DNA from: Buchnera aphidicola (Formosaphis micheliae)
Lineage (GTDB): Bacteria > Pseudomonadota > Gammaproteobacteria > Enterobacterales > Enterobacteriaceae
DNA length: 64,000 bases
Direction: 5' to 3'
Assembly (NCBI RefSeq): GCF_039403185.1
Contig: NZ_CP135047.1
Span: 124,001 to 188,000, forward strand
In this document: one piece after another, positions 38,657-61,760 of the stretch
How positions within the stretch are numbered: position 1 is the first letter of the stretch
Layout of the letters: each line of letters starts with the position of its first letter
The notes under the pieces: generated by a model
Database searches by the model: none
Told to the model about the DNA's origin: nothing
Seen by the model: the letters and a program-made list of their open reading frames with translations, nothing else
Made by a program: the position numbers and the translations under genes

Positions 38657-40126
38657 ATGAGTACAATTATTATAAAACAATTTATTGGATTAATTCCTAT
38701 TTTCATTTTATTAATAGCAGCATTGATTGGGATCTTTTCAATTGCTATAAAGAGAAATCATATATTTGTTTATATTATAAGTGTAATAGGTTTTATTATA
38801 TCAATATTATCTATGTTTTTTGTTTGTCAAATAATACCAATTGATATTGGTATGTTATTTTATATCAATCATTATTCAATTTTATATATGAGTATAATTA
38901 TTATATCTGGTATTATTACTATTATTTTAGCTTATCCTTATTTATTGCATTATAAATTTAATAAAGAAGAGTTTTATTTATTATTATTATTTTCTACATT
39001 AGGTAGCATGGTCGTTGCTATTTCTAATCATTTAATTAGTATTTTTATAAGTATTGAACTAATGTCTTTTCCGATATTAGGATTAATTGGTTATGAATAT
39101 TTTCAATATAAATCGTTAGAAGCAGCATTAAAATATATGATTTTATCCGGATTTTCATCTATATGTTTATTATTAGGTATTGCTTTAATATATTATGTAT
39201 CAGGTAGTTTAAATTTAATTGATATTGGTAATACTTTAATTTTTAATTCTATATATAACAATAATATAATTATATTATTGGGTTTAAGTTTAATTTTAGT
39301 ATCTTTTATATTTAAATTATCAATTGTACCTTTTCATTTATGGACTCCTGATGTATATGAAGGAAGTTCTTATGTAGTTCTTTTTTTTGTATCTTCTGTT
39401 GGTAAAATTGCAGTATTTAGTTTATTAAGTAGATTATTTTTGTATATTCCGAATAGCAAAATCAGTTTAATATATTTAATATTAGAATTTATGTCATTTA
39501 TTTCTATTGTTTTTGGTAGTGTAATGATGTTATTTCAAAAAAACATTAAGAGGTTATTAGCTTATTCATCTATTTCTAATTTAGGTTATTTATTAATTAC
39601 AGTGATATATATCAATAATCAATATATTTCATTAATAACTATTGGATTATTTACACTTAGTTATATATTATCAAATGCAGTTTTTTTAGGTTCTATAAGT
39701 TCTATTTCTATAAAAAATGAACAAAAAGACATTGATTATATTAAATTTTATAGAGGTATATTTTGGCGTCATCCAATTATTGCAATTATGTTAACAATAG
39801 CTTTATTTTCGTTTGCAAGCATTCCTATGAGTATTGGTTTTTTTGGAAAGTTTTATTTAATGTTACTAATAGTATCTAAAAAATCATTATTATTAGGATT
39901 TGGAATTGTTTTAGGTAGTATAATTGGATTATATTGTTATTTACAGGTAATTTTAAGTTTTTATTTAAAATCATCTGAATTATTAAGCAATAACAAATTA
40001 TTTAATAGTTTTAAATTAACTGTATTAAATATATTAATAATAATATTGTCTACTATAATAGTATTATTTGGTATATATCCAACATATTTAATTGAGTTAT
40101 TTGGAAACATTCAATGGTTGTTATAA
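38657..40126 (+). CDS. nuoN: NADH-quinone oxidoreductase subunit N
   Basis: The third antiporter-like subunit and last gene of the operon; 489 residues (485 in E. coli). Family motifs are SIELMSFPILGLIGYE (about residues 132-147, essential Glu), FKLSIVPFHLWTPDVYEGSS (about 222-241, Lys/His) and QKNIKRLLAYSSISNLGYLL (about 293-312). AAAGG precedes the ATG. With this gene every nuo subunit of the E. coli operon is accounted for. Confidence 0.97.
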   Translation: MSTIIIKQFIGLIPIFILLIAALIGIFSIAIKRNHIFVYIISVIGFIISILSMFFVCQIIPIDIGMLFYINHYSILYMSIIIISGIITIILAYPYLLHYKFNKEEFYLLLLFSTLGSMVVAISNHLISIFISIELMSFPILGLIGYEYFQYKSLEAALKYMILSGFSSICLLLGIALIYYVSGSLNLIDIGNTLIFNSIYNNNIIILLGLSLILVSFIFKLSIVPFHLWTPDVYEGSSYVVLFFVSSVGKIAVFSLLSRLFLYIPNSKISLIYLILEFMSFISIVFGSVMMLFQKNIKRLLAYSSISNLGYLLITVIYINNQYISLITIGLFTLSYILSNAVFLGSISSISIKNEQKDIDYIKFYRGIFWRHPIIAIMLTIALFSFASIPMSIGFFGKFYLMLLIVSKKSLLLGFGIVLGSIIGLYCYLQVILSFYLKSSELLSNNKLFNSFKLTVLNILIIILSTIIVLFGIYPTYLIELFGNIQWLL

Positions 40127-40304: not shown

Positions 40305-41157
40305 ATGTATCATAATGTAGGTACAACTTTTCTTTGGACGGTTTTTAGTATATTGTCTATTTTAATGATTTTGTTTGAGGTAACATTACAAAAAAAAAAT
40401 ATTTTTAAAAAATTATTCTAAAGGAGCTTATTTATTAACTATATCTTGGATATGTACTACCTTTTTATTCGCTTTAATATTTTGGTTATGTATTAAAAAT
40501 AATTTTAATTGTGAACATGCTAATACAATATTATTATCTTTTTTTAGTGCTTACTTTTTTGAACAATTATTATCTATAGATAATATTTTTGTGTGGTTTA
40601 TATTATTTAAATCATTTTCTATTTCTTTTATATGGCAACGTAAAGTATTAATATATGGAGTATTAGGTGCTATTTTATTTCGAACTAGTATGATTTTAAT
40701 AGGTAATTGGTTATTGATAAAGTTGCATTGGGTATTGTATTTTTTTGGAGTTATTTTAATATTAACAGGAGCAAAAGTATTTTTTAGTCGAAACAATGAA
40801 AATGATATATTAAAAGAAAAAAAATGGATAATATGGATATATAAAAAATTAAGAATAATAAATGAAATTCAAGGAGATAAATTTTTTTTAAGACGTAATA
40901 GAATATTTTTTTTAACTCCCTTGTGTTTTGTAGCTATATTAATTGAACTTAGTGATATTATTTTTTCTATTGATAGTCTTATAGCTGTTTTATCTATAAC
41001 TGTAGATCCTTTCGTTGCAATTACATCAAATTTATTAGCTATTTTTAGTTTGCGTTCTTTATATTTTGTTTTATATTCTTGTATTAAAAAAATAGATTTT
41101 ATAAAGTATGTAGTAGGGTTAATATTAATTATTATTGGTCTGAAAATTTTTATATAA
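40305..41157 (+). pseudogene. alx: TerC-family membrane protein (Alx-like), frameshifted at an A10 tract
   Basis: Two overlapping reading segments together match E. coli Alx (YgjT). The first runs from ATG 40305 (MYHNVGTTFLWTVFSI) and stops at 40419-40421. The second, in the next frame, continues from 40417 with SKGAYLLTISW, FFEQLLSIDNIFVW and then ELSDIIFSIDSL to the stop at 41155-41157. The break lies beside A10 at 40390-40399; removing one A gives a continuous 283-residue protein with both TerC acidic motifs. TerC/Alx proteins act in manganese or other metal export. The long intact second part argues for recent damage, slippage rescue or a sequencing error. The symbol is by similarity. Confidence 0.8.
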
Positions 41158-41422
41158 CATATAATATATTTTTTTGGTATATTTATAAATAATATGTAAA
41201 CAGATATTGAAATAATATTACTGAGTAATAATATATATATGTTGTAAATATATTGTTATCATAGTAAAGTATGCAAGTTGTTAGTATTTTTTTAAATATT
41301 TTTAATAAAATATTTAATTTCAATATACAAAAACTTATAATTCGTTTATTTGTATATTAATTAACGTATATTTTATTTTTTAAAATGATTTTTTATTGTA
41401 TAGTTAAAATATATAACACGAA

Positions 41423-42625
41423 ATGTATCTTAAAGAAAATAATATAAATTTATATAATTTTAAATTATTGGCAAAAAAAATGCATTTATTGCATTCTTCT
41501 GCATTTATTTTTATTGTTGGCGGTACTAATGGAAAAGGGACAGTATGTTATTTTTTAGAAAAGATTTTTATAAATTCTGGGTATCGAGTAGGGTTATATA
41601 CTTCACCTCATTTATTAGATGAAATTGAACGTGTGAGGATTAATGGTCAATATGTTGAAAGAAGTGTATATCAATATGCGTTTTCATTAGTGAGATTGTA
41701 TCAAAAAAATTTTTTCTTAACATATTTTGAATTTATTACATTAGTTGCATTAGTTTTGTTTAAAGATACCAAATTAGATGTTATTATTCTTGAAGTAGGA
41801 TTAGGAGGTAGATTAGATGCTACAAATATCATTAATACAGATTTATCTATAATTACTAATGTCGGGATAGATCATGTTGATTGTTTAGGTAGCACTCGTT
41901 CTAGTATTGGATTTGAAAAGGCTCATATTGCCAGAAAAAATAAATTTATCATATTTGGAGAATATGATATACCTGGTAAAATGGTACATGTAATAAAAAA
42001 TAAACAGGCTATATTAAAATTATTTAAGAGAGATTGGTTTATTATTAAAAATAAAAATAACTGGAGTTATGTTTCTCGTACTAGAAATATATACAATATT
42101 TCTTATCCTAATGTATCTTTAAATAGTATTTCAGTAGCTTTAACTGCTTTATTTTGTTCTCCATTTATAATATATAATAATGTTATTATAGATGTGATTA
42201 AAAATATTGTGATACCTGGGCGATTTCAAATTATATCTCAAAAACCTAAAATAATATTAGACGTTGGACATAATCCACATGCTATATTAAATTTATCTAA
42301 AAAAATAAAAAAAATTAGTCATAAAAGAAAAAAAATTTATGTGATTATGGGAATATTAAAAGATAAAGATTTTCATAATATGATTTTAAATTTAATAGAA
42401 GTAGTTGATTATTGGTATACTGCGCCAATAGATACGATAAAAGGATTTACTTGGTGTCAATTAAATAAAATTTTACCAAATTTTTTTAATATTTGTAAAA
42501 ATGTTCAAAAAGTATGGGATGTTGTTCAAAAAAGAACTAACAAAGAAGACGTAATAGTCGTATGTGGATCATTTTATTTAGTATCGGAAATAATGAAAAT
42601 TATGAAATTAAAAGTAATAATTTAA
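41423..42625 (+). CDS. folC: Folylpolyglutamate synthase / dihydrofolate synthase
   Basis: Adds glutamate to dihydropteroate and to folates. The P-loop GGTNGKGTVCYFLE lies at about residues 33-46, TYFEFITLVALVLF and ILEVGLGGRLDATNI at about 107-140, and DVGHNPHAI near 280. The 400 residues lack about 20 N-terminal residues present in E. coli (the SWLSYLENLHSK part); no in-frame extension exists because a stop lies three codons upstream. A frame at 41385-41447 could hold the missing piece, but this is weak. Confidence 0.93.
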   Translation: MYLKENNINLYNFKLLAKKMHLLHSSAFIFIVGGTNGKGTVCYFLEKIFINSGYRVGLYTSPHLLDEIERVRINGQYVERSVYQYAFSLVRLYQKNFFLTYFEFITLVALVLFKDTKLDVIILEVGLGGRLDATNIINTDLSIITNVGIDHVDCLGSTRSSIGFEKAHIARKNKFIIFGEYDIPGKMVHVIKNKQAILKLFKRDWFIIKNKNNWSYVSRTRNIYNISYPNVSLNSISVALTALFCSPFIIYNNVIIDVIKNIVIPGRFQIISQKPKIILDVGHNPHAILNLSKKIKKISHKRKKIYVIMGILKDKDFHNMILNLIEVVDYWYTAPIDTIKGFTWCQLNKILPNFFNICKNVQKVWDVVQKRTNKEDVIVVCGSFYLVSEIMKIMKLKVII

Positions 42626-51900: not shown

Positions 51901-53031
51901 TTATAACTTAAAATTTTTAAATTCGGAATCGCTAATATCTGAATCAATTTGTCCTACTAAATAAGAACTTACTTCTACTTCTTGAGGAGCATTTTGAACA
52001 TAATCTGAATTTAGCCAATAATTAATCCATGGAATAGGATTAGAATTTGTTGAAAAAGGTGATTTTAATCCTATTGCATTCATACGAATATTTGTAATAT
52101 ATTCAATATATTGAATTAAAATGTCTTTATTTAGTCCTAGCATAGAGCCATTTTTAAAAAGATATTCTGCCCATTTTTTTTCTTGTTCAGCTACTAATTT
52201 AAATAATTGAAAAGCTTCTTCTTCACATTCTGATGCTATATTTTTCATATTTTCATTAATTGGATTTGTTTTTATAATGTTTAACATGTATTGTGTACTA
52301 TTTAGATGTAATGCTTCATCTCTAGCTATTAATCTAATTATTTTTGCATTTCCTTCCATAATTTGTCTTTCTGCAAAAGCAAAAGAACATGCAAAACTGA
52401 CGTAAAATCTAATGGCTTCTAATGCATTTACACTGATTAAACATAGATATAATGTTTTTTTTAATGTTTTTAAATTAATATATATTTTTTCATTATTAAT
52501 AATATGGCTACCTTCTCCTAACATATGCCAGTAATTAGTCATTTTAATAAGTTTATCATAATAAGCTGAAATGTCTTTAGCTCGCGAAATAATATTTTTA
52601 TTGGTAATAATGTCATCAAAAATTAAAGATGGATTATTAACAATATTTCTAATGATATGAGTATAAGATCTAGAATGAATTGTTTCAGAAAATGACCAAG
52701 TTTGTATCCATGTTTCTAATTCTGGAATAGAGACAATTGGTAAAAATGCTACATTTGGACTTCTACCTTGAATTGAATCTAATAAAGTTTGATATTTCAA
52801 ATTACTTAAGAAAATATGTTTTTCGTTTTTTGGTAAATTATGATAATCGATATTATCTCTAGATAAATCTATCTCTTCTGGTCTCCAAAAAAAAGATAGT
52901 TGTTTTTCTATAAGATTTTCAAAAATTTTATATTTTTGTTGATCATAACGGGAAATATTTACTGATTGTCCAAAAAACATTGGTTCAATTAGTTGATTAT
53001 TTTTTTTTTTTGAAAACGTAGTATATGTCAT
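51901..53031 (-). CDS. nrdB: Ribonucleoside-diphosphate reductase beta subunit (class Ia)
   Basis: The diiron-tyrosyl radical subunit; 376 residues, the E. coli length. Radical Tyr is in [11 protein letters not shown] (about residues 118-128), iron ligands in WSFSETIHS and [13 protein letters not shown] (about 234-246), and the NrdA-binding C-terminus [19 protein letters not shown] is intact. Codons 7-10 contain A12 (opposite strand T-run 53000-53011), the longest in-frame homopolymer I found, so slippage here could matter. Confidence 0.98.
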
Positions 53032-60447: not shown

Positions 60448-61115
60448 ATGCAAACTAAATTTATTAGTTGGTCCCATGTTTTACAACAAGAAAAAAAAAA
60501 AAATATTTTTTAGATATAATAAATTTTTTATCATATGAACGAATGAAGAAAAATATTTATCCTCCAGCAAAAGAAGTATTTACAGCGTTTCGTTTAACTA
60601 ATTTACATAAAATTAAAGTAGTCATTATAGGTCAAGATCCTTATTATCATTTTAATCAAGCTCATGGATTAGCTTTTTCTGTTAATAAAGGTGTAATTAT
60701 TCCTCCTTCATTAAAAAATATTTATAAAGAAATTGTTTCAGACTTATCATGTCCTAATGATTTTATAGATGGATCTTTAAATAGTTGGTCTGATCAGGGT
60801 GTTTTTTTATTAAATTCTGTTTTAACTGTCGAATCAGGTAAACCAGCATCTCATTTCAATATCGGTTGGCAAGTTTTTACAGATCAAGTAATTAGGATAA
60901 TTAATAAGTATTTAAATGGTATAGTGTTTTTGTTATGGGGTAATTTTTCTAAAAATAAATCTTTTCTTATTGATAATAAAAAACACTATATATTACAGGC
61001 GTCACATCCATCACCATTGTCGGCTTATCGTGGATTTTTTGGATGCCGCCATTTTTCTCAAACAAATAAAATATTAATTAAACAAGGTAAAACCCCTATT
61101 AAATGGGTGTTTTAA
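60448..61115 (+). pseudogene. ung: Uracil-DNA glycosylase, frameshifted at an A13 tract
   Basis: From ATG 60448 the product reads MQTKFISWSHVLQQEKKK, matching the E. coli Ung N-terminus, but stops at 60511-60513. The frame that continues with YFLDIINFLSYER and the rest of Ung begins beyond A13 at 60491-60503; one extra A would join them. The catalytic Asp motif reads GQDPYYHFNQAHG: Tyr replaces the usual His after DPY and the next residues are atypical. The C-terminal HPSPLSAYRGFFGC is normal. Either slippage rescues it, the tract length is a sequencing error, or uracil repair is being lost. Confidence 0.82.
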
Positions 61116-61178: not shown

Positions 61179-61760
61179 TCATATAGATAATTGAACTAAG
61201 GCTTTTCTCAATACAATATTATTTAGAGTATATCCAAATTTTATTACAGAAATAATATGATTTGGTGGAATAATTTCAGAAGTTTGATTGGATACAGATT
61301 GATGCAAATGATCTTGAAATAATTCATTTTCTTTGCCTTCTCTTTTTATTCCAAATTTTTCAATTATATTTAATAGTGATTGTAAAGTTAATTCTAAGCC
61401 TTGTATGATGTTTGAATTTTGTATATTTTTTTTATGGGATATTTTTATTATTTCTTCTAAATAATCTATTATGGGTAATATTTTTTTGGAAAATTCTTCT
61501 AATTTATTATATTTTATTAATTTTATATTTGATTGATTTATTTTTCTAATATTATCTATCTTAGCTTGACCTCTTAGTTTAATTTCTTTTATTTGTTTAT
61601 TTATTTGATTAATTTCTTCTTGTAATTTTGTTTCATCTAAGACTGTTTTATTAATAATTGTATCATTTTTTTTTTTGTCTATTGAAATATCTTTATCCAA
61701 GTCGTATTCTTTATTTGGTTTAGATTTTTTTTTTTCTAGATTATTAGATTGATTATTCAC
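61179..61760 (-). CDS. grpE: GrpE nucleotide exchange factor
   Basis: Exchanges ADP on DnaK. The 193 residues (197 in E. coli) have a lysine-rich N-terminus, a long coiled coil (about residues 40-85), and the C-terminal beta-wing segment with LHQSVSN and LNNIVLRKALVQLSI. Two A11 tracts (T-runs at 61666-61676 and 61725-61735) remain in frame. A sigma-32 promoter 43-70 bases upstream ties it to dnaKJ. Confidence 0.95.
   Translation of the reverse strand: MNNQSNNLEKKKSKPNKEYDLDKDISIDKKKNDTIINKTVLDETKLQEEINQINKQIKEIKLRGQAKIDNIRKINQSNIKLIKYNKLEEFSKKILPIIDYLEEIIKISHKKNIQNSNIIQGLELTLQSLLNIIEKFGIKREGKENELFQDHLHQSVSNQTSEIIPPNHIISVIKFGYTLNNIVLRKALVQLSI

Follow-up and report, generated by a model that had tools for sequence, protein, structure and literature searches.

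Among described systems, the locus reported here comes closest to the Buchnera and Blochmannia genes that are frameshifted at poly(A) and corrected by slippage (Tamas et al. 2008; Wernegreen et al. 2010; both cited in PMC3017870 and PMC4389277). In symbiont genes correction by slippage at poly(A) has been reviewed to reach 12-50% of the transcripts (PMC5009743), and Blochmannia genomes carry several genes that are frameshifted at poly(A) tracts (PMC3017870; PMC4389277). In Buchnera, a survey of the whole transcriptome detected no restored frame; in homopolymers it counted 151 single-base insertions versus 16 deletions (PMC5574713). Genes with homopolymeric frameshifts number 1-18 per Buchnera genome (PMC3164680). 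As for the gene concerned, Alx/YgjT is known from Escherichia coli, and the corresponding Buchnera genes are BUSg_160 (Schizaphis) and BBp_156 (Baizongia); absence of alx has been reported for the Buchnera of A. pisum and Cinara cedri (PMC3246468).

We analysed a stretch of 64,000 nucleotides (the window) from Buchnera aphidicola (Formosaphis micheliae), in which alx, the gene of a TerC-family membrane protein of metal homeostasis, is split between two reading frames. Like the slippage-corrected Buchnera and Blochmannia genes, alx lies in an AT-rich reduced symbiont genome and has a single short indel in an extended run of A, with the remainder open and constrained; unlike them, it carries a lesion found in one genome, has lost its C-terminal helix and is known here from DNA alone. 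Frameshifting at poly(A) is an already known phenomenon, and its correction in Buchnera and Blochmannia, to which the preliminary description of this DNA had referred, is documented in the literature; alx of the window is a new instance, ordinary if taken by itself, and is not named in the literature we found on slippage-corrected symbiont genes. With Alx/YgjT of E. coli and of the Schizaphis and Baizongia Buchnera it shares the TerC domain and both acidic motifs, but it differs from them by its broken frame and missing last helix. Whereas E. coli alx has a manganese/pH riboswitch leader, a search for a riboswitch upstream of alx in the window gave no Rfam match.

The source genome comprises 563,141 bases on two contigs, a chromosome of 554,353, of which the window covers positions 124,001-188,000, and a second contig of 8,788. 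The latter is a plasmid carrying trpE, trpG, repA, an Hsp20 gene and a gene of the TIGR00645 family (L068), and over 74% of its length it matches pTrp from strain 27 of the same symbiont with 99.3% identity.

Reading frames of alx and the A10 tract

The gene lies on the plus strand, as do its conserved neighbours nuoN (38657-40126, upstream) and folC (41423-42625, downstream), which flank alx in nine other symbiont genomes too. Frame 1 starts with the ATG at 40305, covers the first membrane helix and ends after 38 codons with the TAA at 40419-40421; its start and end are those given in the preliminary description. The TerC core is encoded in frame 2 (40384-41157), which has no start codon before the GTG at 40591 and is open over 257 codons up to the terminating TAA at 41155-41157; neither this core nor the frame-1 piece holds a second lesion. 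In random first-order sequences of the same make-up as frame 2 a mean of 24 stops is expected over this length, the minimum being 9 in 2000 trials.

The frame-2 piece matches Pfam TerC (PF03741) over positions 2-176 of 178, with 128.5 bits at a cut-off of 27.8. Against the Alx model TIGR03718 the piece, from which the N- and C-termini are missing, aligns to positions 33-268 of 303 and scores 217 (cut-off 246.4), while an intact alx of a sister species scores 253.6. Both acidic motifs of the TerC/Alx family, EQLLSIDN (40561-40584) and ELSDIIFSID (40945-40974), were located by alignment and lie in membrane helices.

Both frames are open in no more than 38 bases (40384-40421), where the shift must fall, and an A10 tract (40390-40399) sits inside this overlap. 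In three sister species of the same genus (G001, G002 and G003) alx is intact, being present at the same place as a single uninterrupted gene of 322-326 codons. The distance from a conserved C to a TATTT motif is 10 bases in the window as compared to 12 in G001 and G002; G003 also has an A10 tract but is in frame, its overall spacing being that of G001 and G002. Judged by this spacing the indel in alx is a net -2 relative to the sister species, equivalent in frame to +1, so that the one-base frameshift proposed earlier is right in its effect on the frame and wrong in size. The alignment makes A10 the likely site of the indel, and of any slippage, but not the proven one, since a shift at a nearby T5 or A6 aligns equally well.

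The two frames are joined if the tract has a length of A9 or A12, with predicted products of 283-284 residues, whereas A8 and A11 would give 33-34 residues, and A10 and A13 would give 38-39. With one A removed the protein is one residue shorter than the orthologues at this place, while A12 corresponds to the orthologous length. The prediction that deletion of one A yields a full TerC-type protein with both acidic motifs was thus borne out for the motifs but not for the length, as the stop at 41155 cuts off the last helix. Single-base insertions, which dominate in Buchnera transcripts, do not help the A10 tract. As in slippage-corrected genes, the indel of alx falls in a homopolymer of about nine or more with both sides otherwise open.

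Selection on alx and its missing C-terminal helix

We compared alx with the sister species and with more distant symbionts. When the protein branch of this genome is divided by the G001-G003 distance, alx has a ratio of 1.24, which is the median of 44 genes of the window. A codon model gave an omega on this branch of 0.058 for alx, a rough value as synonymous change is saturated here, as well as 0.057 for nuoN and 0.041 for folC, and omega = 1 was rejected for alx by 41 log units. All 27 residues that are invariant in 11 symbiont Alx orthologues are kept, and the frame-1 piece, with a nucleotide identity of 68-74% to the sisters, is as conserved as the core. As read from these substitution patterns, the comparisons show long-term purifying selection on both sides of the break.

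Signs of an old pseudogene, i.e. several stops or frameshifts and accelerated change, were not observed, the core being free of a further lesion and the rate lying at the median. A random substitution in the core would create a stop in about 6-8% of cases, however, and the open core limits the neutral time since the lesion to about 5-6% divergence only. The same picture would result from a lesion with an age of less than about 5% neutral divergence, and selection is therefore demonstrated for the branch and not for the time since the lesion.

The protein ends about 40 residues short of the end of its sisters, and the C-terminal helix typical of the Alx subfamily is absent. All 11 symbiont Alx orthologues compared continue for about 40 residues beyond the position of the stop, including a further helix. 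The remnant of this helix in the window (41158-41275) is decayed, being 49-51% identical to the sisters, as compared to 69-70% for the core and 47-56% for the flanking intergenic DNA, whereas the sisters are 80-90% identical among themselves in the tail. Since the tail behind the stop has drifted to intergenic identity, the loss of the last helix is old, and after this loss the shortened alx remained under constraint.

Without the helix the product roughly corresponds to the shorter form of TerC seen in the YkoY/YjbE subfamilies. As to a second TerC gene that might take over the function of alx, the TerC domain occurs elsewhere in the same genome in a 540-codon family member and in a weak match, and a scan of the genome contigs returned distant TerC genes only. 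A search for the alx locus in viral contigs found nothing.

alx and ung in other Buchnera

Relatives with small genomes were assigned to Buchnera by the placement of dnaK, a dnaK identity of 78-82% and gene order, the assignment being least certain for G013, G021, G040, G049 and G071. Among 36 genomes of one Buchnera genus alx is nearly complete in 19, one of which (G433) was not resolved on closer reading, rotted with many stops in three and without a trace in 14; in another genus it is present in six of 11 genomes. The rotted copies, in G409, G410 (L101) and G413, contain 10-17 in-frame stops and give a picture of the gene after real inactivation.

Five related genomes (G406, G419, G422, G425 and G436) have an alx frame of 312-319 codons that is open but off the ancestral ATG frame (loci L079, L089, L092, L098 and L099, near positions 1360-1500). 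They form one side of a branch with a support of 93/93, indicating a single origin, and in four of the five omega is 0.16, with omega = 1 being rejected by 58 log units. As there is an in-frame TTG in G422, the ATG has been lost from G425 and the run of G436 is only T6, slippage is not the only possible cause in this group, and either slippage or non-AUG initiation is possible. From the distribution of frames and losses, alx can evidently be kept for a long time with a disturbed 5' end, and it is often lost.

The window contains a second frameshifted gene, and the idea that alx is its only broken gene was dropped, as ung is split at an A13 tract. Our screen for broken genes used the ORFs of the sister species, so that breaks shared with the sisters may stay hidden; ung escaped it, as this gene has its break at the same site in the sisters. 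The gene (60449-61115, plus strand) starts with the ATG at 60449 (MQTKFISWSHVLQQEKKK...), and the piece in the ATG frame (60449-60514) is out of frame with the remaining uracil-DNA glycosylase, whose frame is open from 60468. The break lies at the A13 tract (60491-60503, plus strand), at which A11 or A14 would be in frame. Likewise, ung of G001, G002 and G003 is out of frame at this tract. In the window nrdB (51901-53031) and grpE (61179-61760) carry A12 and A11 tracts, respectively, within their first few codons; both genes are in frame, and the tracts are likely sites of future frameshifts.

We then looked at the frame of ung in 27 Buchnera genomes that have nine or more A's at the site and a recognisable first part. 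Fifteen of these are out of frame and 12 are in frame, and the downstream part is open over 201-207 codons in all 37 genomes read. On the tree the frame switches at least nine times, five of the changes being forced by well-supported branches, and genomes of like state do not cluster more than under shuffled labels. Two sets of four genomes that are all out of frame have omega values of 0.078 and 0.073, an in-frame set has 0.051, and omega = 1 was rejected for the sets by at least 100 log units. A misreading of single A12-A13 tracts is possible, but interrupted tracts that are out of frame are common to several genomes, namely A10GA in G424, G416 and G426 and A10CT in G001 and G002, and their presence in separate assemblies means that assembly error cannot explain all cases. 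A start behind the tract is argued against by the conservation of the first part. Taken together with the codon models, these patterns would most simply be accounted for by restoration of the frame during expression, by slippage of the polymerase or the ribosome. A lesion common to diverged relatives, as expected of slippage-corrected genes, is present in ung and not in alx, and ung is the stronger case of the known phenomenon. Our literature search, which was not exhaustive, yielded no report of frameshifted ung in Buchnera.

Fate of alx and significance of the poly(A) breaks

The preliminary description had offered slippage rescue or very recent inactivation for alx; the long-term purifying selection downstream of the break was confirmed, but the two readings are not separated by the evidence. 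We lean slightly towards a leaky lesion that is partly rescued by slippage at A10, with some Alx still being made. The last membrane helix was lost long ago while the gene stayed under selection; a subsequent net change of -2 in the poly(A) tract that follows the first helix would have left the two parts in different frames. RNA polymerase would slip on A10, and A9 or A12 messages would encode an Alx of 283-284 residues, so that some protein would still be made and selection could still act. What we infer is slippage at this tract, its protein product, which of the two lesions came first, and that the present level matters to the cell. By analogy, ung in the same window favours a working rescue in this lineage, and ung and the five-species alx cases show that such breaks can persist under selection, which, like the lack of a second lesion in the 257-codon core and in the frame-1 piece, argues against an inactivation that happened very recently in the strain or species. 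We nevertheless give such an inactivation, in which the slipped product is incidental and the break is the first step of the loss completed in other Buchnera, a probability somewhat below one half. The frame may stay open by chance up to about 5-6% neutral divergence, losses and rotted copies of alx are common in the relatives, the earlier truncation had already removed the last helix, and in a comparison of four Buchnera genomes from Aphidinae the majority of pseudogenes occurred in a single genome and arose by homopolymer mutations (PMC3164680). Rescue also has to be reconciled with the transcriptome survey in which Buchnera showed no restored frame (PMC5574713), with a lesion seen in only one genome and with the dispensability of alx in many Buchnera, as seen from the 14 of 36 genomes without a trace and the three with rotted copies. 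If the lesion is very young, the evidence for selection has no bearing on the present state of the gene.

Homopolymers are the commonest site of indel errors, and an error of assembly or library would mean that the genome truly has A9 or A12. This is improbable, however, as the genome matches an Illumina NovaSeq assembly (PMC11193766), a platform for which A10 is short, and as about two dozen A or T tracts of 9-12 in other genes of the window are in frame. Translation of the downstream part alone from an internal start might draw on the AAGGAG at the frame-1 stop (40421-40426), but frame 2 lacks an ATG, GTG or TTG before 40591, which lies beyond the first acidic motif, and conservation of the frame-1 piece equals that of the core. 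Internal initiation therefore does not explain the constraint, and we regard it as extremely improbable.

The homopolymer frameshifts in the window, the scope of our count, are of the same lesion type as those listed for other Buchnera genomes, and two in 64 kb correspond to a like frequency (PMC3164680). Those counts treat the frameshifted genes as inactivations, whereas the comparison of ung reveals a break that has long persisted under selection. On balance, with some reserve, we think that at certain poly(A) tracts of Buchnera the frame in the DNA is almost irrelevant, as slippage during expression would yield a mixture of frames. For ung this would hold across the radiation of the aphid symbionts, with tracts of A10 to A14 and at least five to nine flips under strong selection, and alx of the window would be a recent arrival. 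Whether symbiont genes with frameshifts are scored as dead or alive alters the conclusions drawn on gene loss and on minimal genomes. Of more interest than alx itself is the comparison of ung, which makes testable the dependence of a gene on slippage during expression across a whole symbiont radiation.
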